A stretch of 46,112 bases of DNA from Oscillospiraceae bacterium (GTDB taxonomy: Bacteria > Bacillota > Clostridia > Oscillospirales > Ruminococcaceae), in NCBI GenBank assembly GCA_009777835.1, contig WRKZ01000007.1, forward strand, positions 1-46,112, read 5' to 3'. The notes beneath the pieces were generated by a model. The model was not told where the DNA came from, did no database searches, and worked only from the letters and a program-made list of their open reading frames with translations. The stretch's first letter is position 1; each line of letters opens with the position of its first letter. The translations under genes were made by a program, and so were the position numbers. Positions 35,064 to 45,215 of the stretch are shown one piece after another.

Positions 35064-38000
35064 TCAGGGCTTGCCGATTACCTTCTCGTACTTGTTCGTC
35101 ATCATGATTGCGCTTTCCTCCAAACCGGATTTGTCCGCCCCCACGAAATCCATATTCTTTCGCGCTTGCGACAACATCAAACGAATCCGATTCAACTGAT
35201 TAACCTCACTCGCACCGGGGTCATAATCCACCGCAACAATGTTCGACTGGGGATTTCTCCGCTTAAGCTCACCGATAATCCCTTTTCCGACTATGTGGTT
35301 CGGCAGACAGGCGAACGGCTGCATACAGATTATATTATCGACTCCGTCACGCATTAACTCCATCATTTCAGCGGTCAGCATCCAACCTTCCCCTGCGATG
35401 TTCCCGGTCGAAACAATTCCATCTACCAATTTGCGAACTTCTCTAAACGGCATATGCTCTCCGAACTTAGTCCCTTTGATTGCTTCGGCGACGGGTTTTT
35501 GCAACCACTCAAACATATCGATTACCTTGTTTGAGATGAACCACCGCTTCCATGATACGGTCAAGAATTCATGTCGCGAATTCGCGTGGTCGCACATAAA
35601 CCCCAGGAAACTGATGAATCCCGGAACAACCGCTTCCGCCCCCTCTGACTCCACTACGTCAACCACAAAATTATTCGCCATCGGGTGGTATTTCACCAGG
35701 ACTTCGCCGACAATTCCGACCCGCGGTTTCTCAATTTCAAACACCGGCAACTCATTAAACTCCCGAACAATGTTTCGCACATTCACTGTGAATCGCTTAC
35801 GATTAAGCGATTTTACTTCCCCCTTGAGGAACTCATTCCATTTTTCATAAAGTTTGTTCGCACTGCCCTTCTCCATTTCGTAAGGACGAACCCGATATAA
35901 ACACCGACTGAGCAGGTCACCGTAAATCAATGAAATCGCCGCCCTTGCCAACAGAATCGGCGTAAGACTGAACCCCGGGTTCTTTTCCATGCCGACTATG
36001 TTAAGCGAAATCAAAGGAATATCCTTGTACCCCGCTTCCTCCATAGCCTTTTTCAACATTCCGATGTAGTTGGTCGCACGGCAAGCCCCTCCTGTCTGAG
36101 TAATCATAACCGAAGTGGTTTCAAGGTCATATTTCCCGCTTTGAACAGCGTGCATAAGCTGCCCGATTGTCAAAATAGCGGGATAACAAGCGTCATTATT
36201 GACGTATTTCAGCCCCTCATCGATAACCTGTTGAGAATAATCCTTCAAAATCACAAGATTAACCCCGGAAGCACGGAATGCGTGTTCCATTAAATTAAAG
36301 TGAATCGGCGACAACTGCGGAGCGAGAACGGTATGGGTCTTACGCATCGCTTTGGTGAACAGCGGATGCCGTTCAAACGCTTTAATCTCACCTTTAGCGA
36401 CGTAACCTTTACGCTCACGCTCTTCAACCACCGAGAACAGCGAACGCAAACGAATCCGCGCCGCACCTAGATTGTTCACCTCATCGATTTTCAAGACGGT
36501 GTAAAGCCTTCCGCACTGTTCGAGCATTTCTTGAACCTGGTCGGTCGTAACCGCATCAAGTCCGCACCCGAAAGAATTAAGCTGAACCAACTCCAATTCC
36601 TGCTTTTCGGTTACAAGAGTAGCCGAAGCATACAGTCGGGTATGATACATCCACTGGTCAACACTGCGAAGCGGTCGCAGAACCTCGGCTAAATGCGCCA
36701 CCGAATCTTCGGTAAGCACTGCATAACCGAATCCGTTTACCATTTCGGGGATTCCGTGGTTGATTTCCGGGTCAATGTGATACGGCCGCCCTGCAAGAAC
36801 AATTCCCTTGCCGCCGTTCTTTTTAAGAAGGGCGAGGGTTTCTTCACCTTTTCGACGAATATCCCCCTTAAATCTACGGTCTGCTTCATACGCTTTAGCC
36901 AATGCCCGCCCGATTTCGCCGCCGCTGATTCCCAACGGAAGAAATTCTTCTACGAGCCTTTCGGACATTCTTTCATGTTCGTAAATCGGCAGAAACGGAT
37001 TCATCAACTCAACCGAATGTTCACGCAATTCGGGAATGGAATTCTTGAGTACTTCACTGTAGGTTGCCACTACGGGACAGTTATAATGATTATCTCCGCC
37101 GTGACCTTCGTCCATCTCATAAGTCAAACAAGGGAAGAAAATCAACTTAACACCATCGTCAATCAGCGACATTACATGACCGTGCGCCAATTTCGCAGGG
37201 TAGCAAACCGACTCCGACGGCATAGTTTCAATTCCGTAATCGTAGATTTCCCGCGACGATTTCGGCGACAGCTTCACACTGTAGCCGAGTTCGGTGAAGA
37301 ACGTATGCCAGAACGGATAATTCTCGTAAAATCCCAACACCCGCGGAATGCCAATTACACCACGCTTCGCCGCAGACTCCGGCAGAGACTTATAATCAAA
37401 CACGCGGTTATACTTATACTCGTACAGATTCGGCAACTCGAACTTTTTCGAATTTATTCCCACACCGATTTCACAGCGATTATTCGTAATAAATTTCGAA
37501 TCGTCATCAAACTTGCTGATTGTCAGCAAGCAATTATTGGCACATTTCGCACACCTTGCGGTAGACTTCTTAATAGTAAAAGTTTCGAGCCGCTGTAAAT
37601 CGGCAATGGTTGAACCTTTTTTATCATCCCGCTCAAATGCGATTAACGCACTCCCATATGCACCCATAAGCCCGGCTTGAGCAGGACGAACTACGTTTCG
37701 ACCGCAAGTAAGCTCAAACGCACGAAGCACCGAGTTGTTCAGGAACGTCCCCCCCTGCACAATGATTTTTTCCCCCATTGATTCCGGTTCACGGACTTTG
37801 ATTACCTTAAACAACGCATTCTTCACTACCGAATAGCTCAATCCCGCAGAAATATCCGCAACCGAAGCCCCCTCTTTCTGCGCCTGTTTGACCCGGCTGT
37901 TCATAAATACGGTACAGCGAGAACCCAAATCTACCGGATTCTCGGCTGAAAGACCAACTTCAGCGAATTCGGCAGCTTTCATACTCAAAGCGTTAGCAAA

Positions 38001-39365
38001 GTTCTCAATAAAAGAACCGCACCCCGACGAACAGGCTTCGTTAAGCAAAATAGATTCAATTTCACCGTTTCTGACCCGCATACATTTCATGTCTTGCCCA
38101 CCGATGTCGAGAATAAACTCCACCCCCGGCAGGATTTTCTCTGCCGCTTTATAATGCGCCATCGTCTCAATTTCACCGAAATCAATTCCCAGTGCTGCCT
38201 TCACAAGATGTTCCCCGTAACCCGTAGCTGTCGCTTTTGCTATGTATGCTTTTTCGGGGAGTTTTCCGTAAATGTCTTTCAAAATCCCAATGACCGACTT
38301 CAGCGGGTCTCCCATATTGTTATCGTAATGGGTATAAAGAATTTCCGCTTTTTCGTTAATCAGAACAGCTTTTGTAGTCGTACTGCCCATATCAACGCCG
38401 AGGTAGCACCCGCCGGAATGTTTCGCCAAGTCACCTTCGGGGATTACGTCCGACTTATGCCGCTCTGTAAACTCACGCTTGTCCGATTCATCTTTAAACA
38501 ACGGTTGAAGCCGCTCGACTTCATGCACCACCACCGAATCCAAGGCTGAAATCTTTTCCTTTAAATGCTGAAGAGTAACTTCTTCGGTACTTTCGCCGAC
38601 ACCTTCCGATAATGCCGCCCCCATAGCCACGAACAAATTCGCATCTTCAGGAAATATAATGTTTTCGTCCGTCAATTCCAGCGTTTCAATAAAACGATTG
38701 CGAAGTTCCGATAAATAATGCAACGGACCGCCCAAGAACGCAATTTTCCCGCGAATCGGCTTACCGCAAGCAAGTCCGCTAATCGTCTGATTCACCACCG
38801 ACTGGTAAATCGATGCGGCAATGTCAGACTTTTTCGCCCCGTCATTCATCAGTGGCTGAATATCGCTTTTAGCGAAAACCCCGCAACGAGAAGCAATCGG
38901 GTAAATAGTCTCGTAATTCTTTGCCATTTCGTTGAGTCCGGTAACGTCGGTGTTCAAGAGTGCCGCCATCTGGTCAATGAACGCACCCGTTCCGCCGGCA
39001 CAACTGCCGTTCATTCGCTGTTCGAGTCCGCCTGTGAAGTATGTAATCTTCGCATCCTCGCCGCCTAATTCAATCGCAACGTCGGTATCCGGGATTAACA
39101 CTTCGACCGCACGCGCACCTGCGCTAACCTCCTGCACAAAGGGAATGTCAAGCCACTTAGCCGCATTTATCCCCCCCGAACCCGTCACAGCAATCCGCGC
39201 CGAATCCCCTTTGAGGGAATCTACACATTCACCCAGGACTTCAGCAAGCGTTTTCTTTATATCGGAATAATGCCTTTGATATTTCTGATAAATAATCTTG
39301 TTATCCTCACCCAAAACAGCGATTTTCACCGTGGTTGAACCCACGTCAAGACCGATTCTTTTCAT
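35064..39365 (-). CDS. Acyl-CoA dehydratase activase, large fused form
   Basis: 1433 residues. Two BadF/HgdC-type ASKHA ATPase domains are in tandem: the first opens GLDVGSTTVKIAVLG with ELGGEDAKITYF and NGSCAGGTGAFIDQ, the second opens GVDMGSTTTKAVLI with DIGGQDMKCMRV and EACSSGCGSFIEN, where Cys residues of this kind hold the [4Fe-4S] cluster of the activator. A Cys-rich CAKCANNC segment and a long DUF2229/HgdB-like C-terminal region follow. This architecture is widespread in Clostridia. It should use ATP to inject a low-potential electron into a partner, but no 2-hydroxyacyl-CoA dehydratase genes are adjacent. Confidence 0.87.
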   Translation of the reverse strand: MKRIGLDVGSTTVKIAVLGEDNKIIYQKYQRHYSDIKKTLAEVLGECVDSLKGDSARIAVTGSGGINAAKWLDIPFVQEVSAGARAVEVLIPDTDVAIELGGEDAKITYFTGGLEQRMNGSCAGGTGAFIDQMAALLNTDVTGLNEMAKNYETIYPIASRCGVFAKSDIQPLMNDGAKKSDIAASIYQSVVNQTISGLACGKPIRGKIAFLGGPLHYLSELRNRFIETLELTDENIIFPEDANLFVAMGAALSEGVGESTEEVTLQHLKEKISALDSVVVHEVERLQPLFKDESDKREFTERHKSDVIPEGDLAKHSGGCYLGVDMGSTTTKAVLINEKAEILYTHYDNNMGDPLKSVIGILKDIYGKLPEKAYIAKATATGYGEHLVKAALGIDFGEIETMAHYKAAEKILPGVEFILDIGGQDMKCMRVRNGEIESILLNEACSSGCGSFIENFANALSMKAAEFAEVGLSAENPVDLGSRCTVFMNSRVKQAQKEGASVADISAGLSYSVVKNALFKVIKVREPESMGEKIIVQGGTFLNNSVLRAFELTCGRNVVRPAQAGLMGAYGSALIAFERDDKKGSTIADLQRLETFTIKKSTARCAKCANNCLLTISKFDDDSKFITNNRCEIGVGINSKKFELPNLYEYKYNRVFDYKSLPESAAKRGVIGIPRVLGFYENYPFWHTFFTELGYSVKLSPKSSREIYDYGIETMPSESVCYPAKLAHGHVMSLIDDGVKLIFFPCLTYEMDEGHGGDNHYNCPVVATYSEVLKNSIPELREHSVELMNPFLPIYEHERMSERLVEEFLPLGISGGEIGRALAKAYEADRRFKGDIRRKGEETLALLKKNGGKGIVLAGRPYHIDPEINHGIPEMVNGFGYAVLTEDSVAHLAEVLRPLRSVDQWMYHTRLYASATLVTEKQELELVQLNSFGCGLDAVTTDQVQEMLEQCGRLYTVLKIDEVNNLGAARIRLRSLFSVVEERERKGYVAKGEIKAFERHPLFTKAMRKTHTVLAPQLSPIHFNLMEHAFRASGVNLVILKDYSQQVIDEGLKYVNNDACYPAILTIGQLMHAVQSGKYDLETTSVMITQTGGACRATNYIGMLKKAMEEAGYKDIPLISLNIVGMEKNPGFSLTPILLARAAISLIYGDLLSRCLYRVRPYEMEKGSANKLYEKWNEFLKGEVKSLNRKRFTVNVRNIVREFNELPVFEIEKPRVGIVGEVLVKYHPMANNFVVDVVESEGAEAVVPGFISFLGFMCDHANSRHEFLTVSWKRWFISNKVIDMFEWLQKPVAEAIKGTKFGEHMPFREVRKLVDGIVSTGNIAGEGWMLTAEMMELMRDGVDNIICMQPFACLPNHIVGKGIIGELKRRNPQSNIVAVDYDPGASEVNQLNRIRLMLSQARKNMDFVGADKSGLEESAIMMTNKYEKVIGKP

Positions 39366-40722: not shown

Positions 40723-40760
40723 ACTTACCTCAAACTTACTTGAAATACCCCTTGACTTAC
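40723..40760. promoter_or_regulatory. Three phased ACTTAC direct repeats between divergent promoters
   Basis: ACTTAC occurs at 40723, 40734 and 40755, so the spacings are 11 and 21 bp, one and two helical turns. The last two extend to ACTTACTT. The third overlaps the -35 of the rnf promoter, and the first abuts the -35 of the flavodoxin promoter. This looks like an operator array, not proven. Confidence 0.4.
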
Positions 40761-40780
40761 TTAAATATATATGTTATCAT
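40752..40780 (+). promoter_or_regulatory. Promoter of the rnf operon
   Basis: TTGACT (40752-40757) and TATCAT (40775-40780) with a 17-bp spacer. The leader to rnfC is about 45 nt. Confidence 0.75.
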
Positions 40781-40832: not shown

Positions 40833-42125
40833 ATGATAATAAATACAGTCACGCTCCCCGTCCACAACAATTCGGCAGAGAAAGCTACAGTCACCCCGGA
40901 ACTGCCCGAAAAAGTCATTATCAGTATGGCGCAAAGCATCGGCGCACCCTGCGAACCGCTGGTAAAACCCGGCGACCGTGTATTAAAAGGACAGCTAATC
41001 GGCGATTCATCGGGGAACGTATCTGCACCGGTTCATGCAAGTGTCAGCGGGAAGGTGAGCGGAGAAACCGAAATCCTCAACATTTCGGGGAAACTCAGCC
41101 GCGCAATCGTAATTGAAACCGATTCGATTCAAGAACTGCATCCCGATATAAAACCGCCGACCGTCACAGACAGAGAATCTTTTTTGAAAGCGGTACGCGA
41201 TTCGGGGAGCGTGGGTTTAGGCGGGGCAGGATTCCCTACTCATCTCAAGTTGGACTACGACAGAAAACGAGCAACCGCCGATACGTTAATCATCAACGCG
41301 GCAGAGTGTGAGCCGTTTATTACGAGCGATTACCGTGAAATCATGGAACTCCCCCACGACGTAATCGAAGGTATCAGATTGGTTATGAAATACATCGGGA
41401 TTCCGAAAGCTCTTATAGGAATTGAAGGTGACAAACCCGATGCAATCGAGAAAATGCGGGAAGTCAGTGCAAACTTCCCCGAAATAACGGTAAAACAACT
41501 CCCTGCGAAATACCCGCAAGGCGCGGAGAAAGTCATCGTATACCAAATGACGGGCAAACTGGTCAAGAAGGGCAAACTCCCGCTTGATTCGGGCTGTATA
41601 GTCATGAACGTATCGACTATTTCGTTCCTTGCCGAATATATGAGAACCGGGATTCCTTTAATCACCCGCCGCGTGACAATCGACGGTGATGAAGAGTTAA
41701 TCGATAAAGAAAACGCCAAGAACGTTTTCGTTCCGGTGGGAACAACGCTCGAACATCTGCGTAAAATCGCCGGTCTGAAACGCGAACCCGCAAGAATCAT
41801 CATCGGCGGGCCTATGATGGGTTCCTGCGTTTACGACATGAACACCCCGGTTGTCAAGACTACGGGTTCGGTGCTTTTCCTGGGAGAACCCGATTTCACG
41901 CGTGAATCGCCCTGTATTCGTTGTGGAAAATGTATTCACGTCTGCTCAATTAATTTGAATCCGTATGAAATCAATCGCGCTTACGATGCGAAAAACGTCG
42001 AAATGCTCAAAAAACTTTGTGCCGATATGTGTATGAGTTGTGCGTCGTGTTCTTTCATATGCCCTGCAAAACGTCATATCAGCGAAAAAGGCCAACTGGC
42101 GAAACAACTTGTCTTAAAAAAATGA
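40833..42125 (+). CDS. rnfC: Rnf complex subunit RnfC
   Basis: 430 residues. The N-terminal barrel-sandwich part is followed by a Gly-rich NADH/FMN site GLGGAGFPTH (residues 129-137) and INAAECEPF. Two [4Fe-4S] ferredoxin motifs lie at the C-terminus: CIRCGKCIHVC (361-371) and CMSCASCSFIC (400-410). RnfC is the NADH-binding peripheral subunit of the ferredoxin:NAD+ oxidoreductase that pumps Na+ or H+. It is first in the operon, directly after its promoter. Confidence 0.94.
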   Translation: MIINTVTLPVHNNSAEKATVTPELPEKVIISMAQSIGAPCEPLVKPGDRVLKGQLIGDSSGNVSAPVHASVSGKVSGETEILNISGKLSRAIVIETDSIQELHPDIKPPTVTDRESFLKAVRDSGSVGLGGAGFPTHLKLDYDRKRATADTLIINAAECEPFITSDYREIMELPHDVIEGIRLVMKYIGIPKALIGIEGDKPDAIEKMREVSANFPEITVKQLPAKYPQGAEKVIVYQMTGKLVKKGKLPLDSGCIVMNVSTISFLAEYMRTGIPLITRRVTIDGDEELIDKENAKNVFVPVGTTLEHLRKIAGLKREPARIIIGGPMMGSCVYDMNTPVVKTTGSVLFLGEPDFTRESPCIRCGKCIHVCSINLNPYEINRAYDAKNVEMLKKLCADMCMSCASCSFICPAKRHISEKGQLAKQLVLKK

Positions 42126-42159: not shown

Positions 42160-43098
42160 ATGAATAAACTCATTATTGAACCCAATCCGCATATACGCAG
42201 TTCGAACACGACCTCACAAATCATGGTGGGGGTTATAATAGCCGCCATTCCGTCGATTATAGCTTCGACAGTGTTTTTCGGATTGAAATCCCTGATTTTA
42301 ATCGCGACCTGCGTATCTGCCTGCATTTTTTTCGAATTCGCGTTCCGTTTGATTTTCAAAAAACCGCATACAATCGCTAACTTTTCGGCAGTAATTACCG
42401 GGATTCTGTTAGCGTTCTGTCTCCCGGTAACTTTTCCGCTCTATATGGCGGTAATAGGCTCGTTCGTTTCAATCGTGATTGTCAAAGAAATGTTCGGCGG
42501 AATCGGTCAAAACTTTGCGAACCCCGCTATCGTAGGGCGAATCGTACTTATGCTGTCATTTCCGTCGTATATGTCAAACTACGTTGAACCCTTCTTCTAC
42601 AATCATGCCGATTCATCGGTTGATGTTGTTTCAAGTGCGACCCCGCTTGCGGTCGAAGCCGGGGAAATCCTCCCTTCTTATCTGGATTTATTCCTCGGCA
42701 ATCACGGCGGCACACTGGGAGAAACCAGTGCATTAGCCCTTCTGCTGGGATTTGCTTATCTGCTCTGCATGAAAATCATTCGCTGGATTACTCCGGTGGT
42801 TTTCGTGGGAACGGTCGCTGTAGGAACGCTGGTTTTCGGCGGTGACCCATTGTTCGCCGTTTTAACGGGGGGAGTCCTGCTCGGTGCGATTTTCATGGCA
42901 ACCGATTATACGACTAATCCCATGACACCGCACGGTAAAGCGATTTTCGCTTTCGGTTGCGGACTGATTACGGTTATTATCCGACAATTCGGCGGAATGC
43001 CTGAAGGCGTAGCGTTCTCTATTCTAACCATGAACGTCTTAACCCCATTAATCGATAGAGTCACCAAAACAAAACCGTTTGGAGCGGACTCTTCTTAA
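42160..43098 (+). CDS. rnfD: Rnf complex subunit RnfD
   Basis: 312 residues with about nine hydrophobic helices. The covalent-FMN site DVVSSATPLA (flavinylated Thr161 expected) fits the Dxx(S/T)xAT rule recognised by ApbE. FGGIGQNFANPAIVGR and DYTTNPMTPHGKAIF are RnfD/NqrB signatures. It forms part of the membrane ion channel core. It follows rnfC by 34 bp. No apbE gene is in the window. Confidence 0.94.
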   Translation: MNKLIIEPNPHIRSSNTTSQIMVGVIIAAIPSIIASTVFFGLKSLILIATCVSACIFFEFAFRLIFKKPHTIANFSAVITGILLAFCLPVTFPLYMAVIGSFVSIVIVKEMFGGIGQNFANPAIVGRIVLMLSFPSYMSNYVEPFFYNHADSSVDVVSSATPLAVEAGEILPSYLDLFLGNHGGTLGETSALALLLGFAYLLCMKIIRWITPVVFVGTVAVGTLVFGGDPLFAVLTGGVLLGAIFMATDYTTNPMTPHGKAIFAFGCGLITVIIRQFGGMPEGVAFSILTMNVLTPLIDRVTKTKPFGADSS

Positions 43099-43207
43099 CT
43101 TCCTTATTACTGCTAAAGTCGTTTGAAAGACAAATATTAAACCGAAACAAATGTCAAGACTTTCGTTTCGGAGTAATATATAATAAATGTAAGGAAATAG
43201 TCGGACA

Positions 43208-44410
43208 ATGAATCCCAAAAATAGTTCTAAATCTCAATACTTCAAGCCGGCAATCGTTCTCGGCTTGATTACCGCTGTGATGAGCGCGCTTTTAATCCTA
43301 ACCACCAACTTCCTTCCGGACAACGGAAACGAAATCACTCCAAAACTGCGCGAGGCTTGCGCAACCCTCATGGACGGGGAAGAATTCACTATAGTCGAAG
43401 ATTGGGTAGAAAGCGGACTCTCACTGATTTCTAAGCCGGATAATGTCAGCAAACTCATCGTAAACGAAAACGGTGACATCGCACTCGAGATTATCACCGG
43501 CGGATTCAAGCCGCCCGACGGAATTACCGCTTTGGTTGCCATGAATCCGGACGGAAGCGTTCGCGGGGTCAAGACGGTAAACATAAAAGATGACCCGGGA
43601 ATAGGCACGAAGGTGAGCGATGGTGCGTTTTTAGACCGATTCGCCGACAAAGACGGTAAAGTCACCATTGTTAAAGGAAACCCGCAAAACAATGACGAAG
43701 TTGAGGGAATCACAGGCGCGACCTACTCATCAAAAGGGGTTGCCGAAGCGGTGAACGTAGCAATAACAGTGTATTCGGGAATGAAAACCGGTGATTTGCA
43801 AGCCGAAGAGACAGCGAAATCAAGTATAATAGGGACTTTGTTCGTGATTTTAATCGCAGGGGTCTTGACCGAGAACTTCATTCTGTCGAAGTTCCTGGGA
43901 ATTTGCCCGTTCCTGGGTGTATCGAAAACTATGCAGGGTGCGGTCGGAATGGGTCTTGCGGTGACTTTAACCATGCTGATGGCGACAGCGTTGACCTTCC
44001 CGATTTACGTTTTCGTACTCGTCCCCCTCGAAATAAGCTACATGACCACGATTGCGTTCATTTTGGTAATCGCCTTGTTTGTTCAGTTGTTGGAAATGCT
44101 GCTCAAGAAATTCCTGCCCCCTCTGTACGAAGCGTTGGGGATGTATCTCCCGCTGATTATCACCAACTGCGCAATTCTGGGGGTGACTGTCCTGAACGTA
44201 AACAGGGGATACAATTTCGGATACGCTTTGTTTAATTCCTTGTGTGCCGGGTTGGGATTCCTAATCGTTATGCTTGTTTTCTCGACTATACGGGAAAGAG
44301 TTGAACAAAACCAAAGTATTCCCGAACCGTTGAAAGGCGCGCCTATTACCTTGATTTCCGCCGCAATCATGTCGTTGGCGTTAATCGGGTTCGGCGGACT
44401 TGGAGGATGA
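43208..44410 (+). CDS. RnfG-RnfA fusion protein
   Basis: 400 residues in one frame. Residues 1-203 are RnfG: one N-terminal membrane helix (15-33), an FMN-binding domain, DDPGIGTKV, and the flavin site EGITGATYSS with acceptor Thr172. Residues about 205-400 are a complete RnfA: six helices, GICPFLGVSK (Cys233), VQLLEMLLKK, LPLIITNCAILGV (Cys321) and RERVE. The usual order is rnfCDGEAB; here G joins A directly and RnfE is absent, so a deletion of E could have made the fusion. Four Cys from RnfA and RnfE normally hold an intramembrane iron centre; only the RnfA pair is here. Confidence 0.88.
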   Translation: MNPKNSSKSQYFKPAIVLGLITAVMSALLILTTNFLPDNGNEITPKLREACATLMDGEEFTIVEDWVESGLSLISKPDNVSKLIVNENGDIALEIITGGFKPPDGITALVAMNPDGSVRGVKTVNIKDDPGIGTKVSDGAFLDRFADKDGKVTIVKGNPQNNDEVEGITGATYSSKGVAEAVNVAITVYSGMKTGDLQAEETAKSSIIGTLFVILIAGVLTENFILSKFLGICPFLGVSKTMQGAVGMGLAVTLTMLMATALTFPIYVFVLVPLEISYMTTIAFILVIALFVQLLEMLLKKFLPPLYEALGMYLPLIITNCAILGVTVLNVNRGYNFGYALFNSLCAGLGFLIVMLVFSTIRERVEQNQSIPEPLKGAPITLISAAIMSLALIGFGGLGG

Positions 44411-44411
44411 T

Positions 44412-45215
44412 ATGGATTATTTAACACCTATACTTTTTTTTGCCGGAATCGGTGTTGCAGCAGGGGTTATTCTCACAGTCGCAGCGAAGCTTTTCGCGGT
44501 TGAAGGCAATGTCATTGTAAAAAAGCTGACCGAACAACTCCCCGGCACTAACTGCGGTGCATGCGGATTCGCTAACTGCTCGAAATATGCCGAAGCAATA
44601 GCGGCAGAGAAAGTCGCACCGAATCAATGCAAACCCGGCGGGGTGGCAGTAGCGGAGAAAATCGGGGAAGTTTTGGGGAAGTCGGTCAATGCGGCAGAAC
44701 CCGAAACTGCATTTGTTTTCTGTAACGGTAAACCGCCGAATTCTCCCGATTCAAGCGCAATCGATGAAAAATACAGATACAACGGCGGACAGAGTTGTCG
44801 CGCCTGCGAACTCTATTACAACGGGAAGAACAGTTGCCGATTCGGCTGTACCGGTCTGGGTGATTGCGTTGCAATCTGCCCCGAAAATGCGATTTCGCTG
44901 GTTAATTCGATTGCTGTGGTTGACAGTCGGCGGTGTACCGCCTGCGGACTCTGCATTAAAGCCTGCCCGAAGAACATTATACGCGTTCAAAGTACGGGAC
45001 AGCGGGTCAACGTAGCATGTTCATCGAAAGACTTCGGTGCGAAGGTCAAATCCGTGTGCGTAACCGGCTGTATCGGATGCAAAATCTGCATCAAGAAGTG
45101 TCCGCAATCGGCGATTCAAATGCGGGACAATCTCGCTGAAATCAATGCCGAACTATGCGATAACTGCGGAATTTGCGCTTCTTCCTGCCCAATGAAAAGC
45201 ATAGTAAAATCGTAA
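44412..45215 (+). CDS. rnfB: Rnf complex subunit RnfB
   Basis: 267 residues from the ATG at 44412; GGAGGA at 44402-44407 lies in the last codons of the fused gene, and only one base separates stop and start. An in-frame TTG at 44400 is less likely. An N-terminal membrane helix is followed by the four-Cys motif LPGTNCGACGFANCSKY with a further Cys downstream, then ferredoxin repeats including CTACGLCIKACP, CIGCKICIKKCP and CDNCGICASSCP. RnfB takes electrons from ferredoxin. It is the last gene of the operon. Confidence 0.94.
   Translation: MDYLTPILFFAGIGVAAGVILTVAAKLFAVEGNVIVKKLTEQLPGTNCGACGFANCSKYAEAIAAEKVAPNQCKPGGVAVAEKIGEVLGKSVNAAEPETAFVFCNGKPPNSPDSSAIDEKYRYNGGQSCRACELYYNGKNSCRFGCTGLGDCVAICPENAISLVNSIAVVDSRRCTACGLCIKACPKNIIRVQSTGQRVNVACSSKDFGAKVKSVCVTGCIGCKICIKKCPQSAIQMRDNLAEINAELCDNCGICASSCPMKSIVKS

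Follow-up and report, generated by a model that had tools for sequence, protein, structure and literature searches.

An rnf operon with a fused RnfG-RnfA frame

The window analysed here, a 46,112-nucleotide stretch of contig WRKZ01000007.1 (assembly GCA_009777835.1) from an Oscillospiraceae bacterium, carries an rnf operon in the order C-D-(G-A)-B, unlike the C-D-G-E-A-B arrangement (Table 1). Positions 43208–44410 of the plus strand form a single open reading frame of 400 codons, running from ATG to TGA with no internal stops. Two Pfam domains lie within it, FMN_bind (PF04205) at residues 106–186 (52.8 bits against a cut-off of 22) and Rnf-Nqr (PF02508) at residues 212–398 (178.6 bits against 23.8). 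An earlier note on this DNA had described an uninterrupted frame joining RnfG, with its flavin threonine Thr172, to RnfA, with Cys233 and Cys321, in an operon running C, D, G-A, B. The frame, its domains and, by direct residue check, the three positions are as described, and profile matches to the neighbouring genes confirm the order. Between rnfC and rnfB of this operon, a search of open reading frames and of NCBI and Pfam profiles found no rnfE.

Table 1. Features of the rnf operon, in window coordinates.
Feature	Position	Strand	Basis and contents
Promoter-like TTGACT-17-TATCAT before rnfC	40752..40780	+	Consensus match only
rnfC	40833..42125	+	TIGR01945, 384.7 bits (cut-off 245.95)
rnfD	42160..43098	+	TIGR01946, 301.7 bits (cut-off 207.05); SSATPL flavin-site and ATDY regions present
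RnfG half, residues 1–194	43208..43789	+	PF04205, structural model, matches to 7zc6_G and 9eri_G; membrane helix 9–35, FMN domain, terminal helix 172–194 starting at flavin Thr172 (codon 43721)
Linker, residues 195–206	43790..43825	+	Between model helices 172–194 and 207–230
RnfA half, residues 207–400 and stop	43826..44410	+	PF02508 over cut-off, TIGR01943 slightly under; metal-site residues Cys233 (codon 43904) and Cys321 (codon 44168)
rnfB	44412..45215	+	ATG start; TIGR01944, 113.9 bits (cut-off 68.7)

Against the more specific RnfA model TIGR01943, the RnfA part scores 225.6 bits (cut-off 229.3) and covers positions 3–189 of 190. The RnfA parts of three further fusions, described below, score 229.0 (G006), 219.7 (G012) and 231.0 (G045), and the RnfA of an unfused relative, G015, scores 236.2, above the cut-off. 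The RnfG part reaches 35.8 bits against TIGR01947, where the cut-off is 102. This low score is not due to the fusion, since the free RnfG of G015 (locus L010) likewise falls under every NCBI cut-off.

The stretch scanned holds 11 promoter-like sites of the kind seen before rnfC, against 7.7 (s.d. 2.9) expected by shuffling. A gap of 109 bases (43099–43207) separates rnfD from the fusion, and D and G overlap in G015; in G006 the corresponding gap and the start of the frame contain, by eye, a repeat some 50 bases long. Elsewhere in the window, positions 35064–39365 of the minus strand encode a protein of 1433 residues, which by eye we take to resemble a fused 2-hydroxyacyl-CoA dehydratase activator/BadF-type ATPase.

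The fusion in related genomes

Canonical RnfA occurs in 56 of the 71 genus genomes, 52 of them unfused (one, G059, by a partial match) and four fused; the remaining 15, some of which are incomplete, show none. The fused genomes are that of the window (G000) and G006, G012 and G045, found by the search among relatives that the earlier note had proposed; these three other species are 49–60% identical. In all 52 unfused genomes rnfE lies directly upstream of rnfA on the same strand (in G044 two contigs each carry part of the E match), in agreement with the note's statement that C-D-G-E-A-B is the standard order. Relatives with rnfE between rnfG and rnfA, which the note had held to speak against its reading, thus do exist, but they represent the ancestral state and do not contradict the fusion.

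We searched more widely, in overlapping sets of genomes, using a profile built from all four fusions. None of the matches listed for the family (247 genomes, 201 with a match at E 1e-30), the phylum (398 genomes, 93 at E 1e-65) or the class (391 genomes, 28 at E 1e-76) was a new one covering both G and A, and the matches listed for the order (394 genomes, 37 at E 1e-80) included no new one, only G045 again; the limits in the phylum, class and order scans were strict enough for a divergent fusion to escape. These scans covered the window's own phylum. Beyond it, a scan of genome contigs gave two distant loci only, and a scan of viral contigs gave no match. At L047, G, E and A are separate. L048 looked fused as the query matched from residue 160 onward, and its RnfA frame has 56 extra N-terminal residues; we regard it as unfused because rnfE precedes rnfA there and the extra residues are read in a different frame across the last part of rnfE. 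Long frames in G373, G175, G306 and G530 proved to be separate G, E and A genes in all four, while others that were flagged, including G526, G184, G167, G199, G116, G157 and G902, were left unread. Apparent G-E fusions were matches crossing a stop codon, with separate genes in G036, G028, G020, G023 and G033; a similar case in G025 was left unread.

One frame need not mean one protein, and RnfA could be released from the fusion by an internal start or by cleavage of the linker. At the window junction, AGGG stands immediately ahead of in-frame TTG211 and GTG213, a weak candidate for an internal start, and the linker is presumably extracellular and would be accessible to proteases. By eye, however, the four fusions share no internal start at one position that has a ribosome-site-like stretch, and both the frame and a linker of similar length are kept in all of them despite their divergence. 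We consider separate RnfG and RnfA products unlikely.

rnfE is displaced, not lost

The window genome (1.74 Mb in 93 contigs, 95% complete) has four PF02508 matches that pass the cut-off, namely the fusion, a solitary gene on contig C47 and a divergent pair on contig C6. The C47 gene (L041, 1550–2278) encodes 242 residues with both cysteine sites kept, and at 233.3 bits it is over the cut-off of the RnfE model TIGR01948 (213.4). The rnfE of G012 is also on a separate contig, C39 (239.0 bits), and that of G045 (237.1 bits) lies directly downstream of the fusion after a gap of 147 bases, giving the order C-D-GA-E-B. In G006, which is 86% complete, we looked for rnfE and did not find it. The location of rnfE in the four fused genomes is thus another contig in two, downstream in one and not found in one. 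In the window genome rnfE has been displaced rather than lost: it is out of the operon and still in the genome. The earlier note was right that the operon lacks rnfE, and the homologue for which it advised searching is the one on C47; the gene is not missing from the genome, and the loss of E that the note saw behind the fusion is not supported. Its further proposal, that RnfE comes from elsewhere or that two RnfA halves form a symmetric centre, holds for the first option, whereas the second has no evidence of its own.

The surroundings of the displaced genes differ. The C47 rnfE ends within the first bases of a CotH-like gene (overlap ATGA), unusual company for a subunit of a redox pump, and on its other side lie divergent TetR-like and ABC transporter genes. 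Upstream of it is a promoter-like TTGACT-17-TACTAT with 9 of 12 matches, one of 5 such sites in the stretch scanned, against 2.6 expected. In G012 the displaced rnfE is followed by an MntP-like gene, and C47 and C39 have no gene in common except rnfE.

We considered the divergent pair on C6 as a source of RnfE and rejected it: at 45.2 its E-like protein is below the rnfE cut-off (213.4), and neither of the aligned sites holds a cysteine. The pair belongs to a cluster (L042, 6573–10642; about 24.6–28.6 kb of C6 in G000) of D-like, E-like and A-like genes followed by one for a DUF4015 protein. The RnfD-like protein has 502 residues and a long charged tail, and no match to RnfG, RnfB or RnfC occurs within the 18 kb around the cluster. 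The A-like gene of this type is present in 68 of the 71 genus genomes, against 56 for canonical RnfA, and these include G016 and G043, which are without the canonical gene. At E 1e-28 its profile matches in 69 of the 128 family genomes scanned, at least one of these matches, that of G157 (C31), being a canonical RnfA; in a phylum sample no match outside the window's genome is stronger than 97 bits, and several are canonical RnfA. When 12 genus loci were aligned, the A-like protein lacked the first RnfA cysteine and kept the second, and the E-like protein lacked both, with several having a cysteine five residues past the first, so that all 12 lack three of the four metal-site cysteines at the positions compared. 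From its sequence, the cluster looks like an Rnf membrane core without the metal site, perhaps a transporter core whose redox site has been lost.

Two fusion groups within one genus

Of the 56 genus genomes that have RnfA, 36 entered the trees: all four fused and 32 of the 52 unfused. The RnfA tree had 37 rows with one outgroup row, and the combined RnfA, RnfB and RnfG tree had 36 rows, with RnfB and RnfG each over the score limit in 34. Both trees group G000, G006 and G012 next to the unfused G015, and place G045 next to the unfused G008. None of 200 bootstrap trees of the combined set unites the four fusions, and constraining them to one clade costs 216 log-likelihood units (AU p = 7.4e-8). 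On the simplest reading, G and A were fused in two separate events within one genus.

The RnfE tree repeats these groups: G000 and G012 form a pair (98/91) beside G015 (91/65), and G045 stands beside G008 (99/92). RnfE therefore looks native in both lines, inherited rather than imported. Some branches are long: that of G000 in the combined tree, at 0.59, was flagged, and in the RnfE tree those of G000 (0.71) and G012 (0.83) meet directly and may be falsely joined. The long branches of the fused lineages could reflect relaxed constraint.

Cofactor residues of the fused systems

Taking four unfused relatives as reference, we scored their invariant cysteine columns in the four fused genomes. All four keep 11 of 11 columns in RnfC and 3 of 3 in RnfD. 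RnfB keeps all 25 in three genomes; in the window genome it keeps 24, the last conserved column being a serine where the other seven proteins compared have a cysteine. The flavin-site threonine of RnfD aligns in all four, of which only G000 and G045 match the strict motif. In the window genome the four cysteines of the RnfA/E site, the flavin threonine of RnfG and the flavin-site region of RnfD are all present, and there is one match to the ApbE flavin-transferase.

These residues bear on whether the lineage is shedding its Rnf complex and the fusion belongs to that decay. The genus genomes without canonical RnfA, the long branches and the lost cysteine of RnfB would fit decay, but none of the four fused genomes has an interrupted frame for C, D, G-A or B, the cofactor residues examined are otherwise intact, and the displaced RnfE is full length. 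Taken together, these observations make decay improbable.

Predicted topology and structure

Charge counts from a simple hydropathy script predict that the RnfA part is N-out/C-out and RnfE N-in/C-in, the assignments being partly by eye as the script found the six helices of RnfA in some proteins only and never all six of RnfE. The window fusion has seven positive residues in inner loops and one in outer loops. These counts agree with the inverted topology reported for RnfA and RnfE (PMC12174285). RnfG has been described as extracellular, with one membrane helix (PMC9588780). With RnfG ending outside, where RnfA is predicted to start, and with RnfE predicted to start inside, RnfG should be able to fuse to RnfA and not to RnfE. 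Membrane topology could thus account for both groups having G-A fusions even though E is the ancestral neighbour of G, and it suggests a simple evolutionary rule: once E has gone, G is free to fuse to A and not to E, owing to the inverted topology.

A structural model of the fusion was predicted from a 54-row alignment, with a mean pLDDT of 84 and a pTM of 0.63. Residues 201–240 have a pLDDT of 57–66, and the pTM is too low for the model to fix the relative placement of the two halves. Using Foldseek, the RnfA half matched 9eri_A and 7zc6_A with a TM-score of 0.86 by target (54% identity to 7zc6_A), and the RnfG half matched 7zc6_G (0.65) and 9eri_G (0.59). A linker of 12 residues can extend to some 40 Å, and a swing of RnfG would therefore be possible but bounded.

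Could the complex do without RnfE, with two RnfA halves in place of the RnfA/RnfE pair? An operon without rnfE, the failure to find the gene in G006 and the fold that RnfA and RnfE share (PMC9588780) would be in keeping with such a symmetric centre. G006 is incomplete, however, and the other three fused genomes have a full rnfE with both cysteines, whose tree groups match those of RnfA. The one-sided charge pattern of the RnfA part would also make an inverted seat in the membrane difficult, and we judge a symmetric centre very improbable. An assembly or binning error at positions 43780–43840, such as the deletion that the earlier note had allowed for, might be suspected in a draft of 93 contigs, but with the linker in frame and the same fusion in three other genomes, one of them with rnfE adjoining, its chance is negligible.

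A probable tethered Rnf complex

We think it highly likely that the window genome makes a six-subunit Rnf complex, the ferredoxin:NAD+ oxidoreductase and ion pump, in which RnfG is tethered to RnfA and RnfE is supplied from another locus, and such a complex would presumably be active. Its history may have begun when rnfE left its ancestral slot between rnfG and rnfA, and G lost its stop, and A its start, in frame. RnfE would be made from its own locus, C47 here, and pair with the RnfA half in the membrane to give the usual four-cysteine metal site. Electrons would pass from ferredoxin to RnfB, the RnfA/E metal site, the RnfG flavin, the RnfD flavins and RnfC, and finally to NAD+. The linker of about 12 residues would hold the RnfG domain on a leash while allowing it to move to and fro between RnfA/E and RnfD, and the fusion would set G and A at 1:1.

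More speculatively, and with considerable doubt, these features could be read jointly: the fusion arose twice as the only join that topology permits, the swing of RnfG is limited and coupled to the opening of RnfA/E, and RnfE from its separate locus is limiting and switches assembly on. If so, the working of the pump would have changed as well.

A central question about Rnf is how far RnfG has to travel from RnfA/E to RnfD. A natural tether, joining the flavin helix at its end to RnfA, would bound this motion, an experiment done by evolution, apparently twice, and the fused genomes should be useful for testing the shuttle model of RnfG. What is new here would be a tethered-RnfG form of the known Rnf complex, for which a symmetric RnfA/RnfA centre is not needed.

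Comparison with known Rnf and NQR systems

The operons of G015 and G008, the nearest unfused rows in the trees, run C, D, G, E, A, B, with rnfE between rnfG and rnfA. The orders rnfABCDGE and rnfBCDGEA have both been described, and order is no biochemical requirement (PMC4014512). Published departures from the standard layout include multi-flavin RnfG clusters and NQR/RNF-like systems (PMC8238504); in the main text of that paper, the words fused, fusion and RnfA do not occur. Among the open-licence PMC papers listed by our searches we found none on an RnfG-RnfA fusion, which is no proof of absence.

Na+-NQR has a homologous core, and its subunits NqrC and NqrE, which are separate chains in the PDB, are among the structural matches (7xk3_E, 8a1t_E, 8a1u_C). 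The window system is an Rnf and not an NQR, since RnfB and RnfC are over their own cut-offs.

The Rnf complexes of Acetobacterium woodii (9ERI) and Clostridium tetanomorphum (7ZC6) have the same subunits and folds, and RnfA and RnfE have the same paired cysteine sites there. The flavin threonine of C. tetanomorphum, Thr164, opens the terminal helix 164:188, as Thr172 does in our predicted model; in the C. tetanomorphum structure RnfG is seen at RnfD, 29 Å from the iron site, and a rotation between RnfA/E and RnfD has been proposed (PMC9588780). In A. woodii the major contact of RnfG is with RnfA/E and only minor movement was resolved; the RnfA/E site has been described as a [2Fe-2S] cluster, and RnfA/E as opening to either side for sodium (PMC11889175). 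In both structures RnfG, described as mobile, and RnfA are separate chains, whereas in the fused genomes they are encoded as one.
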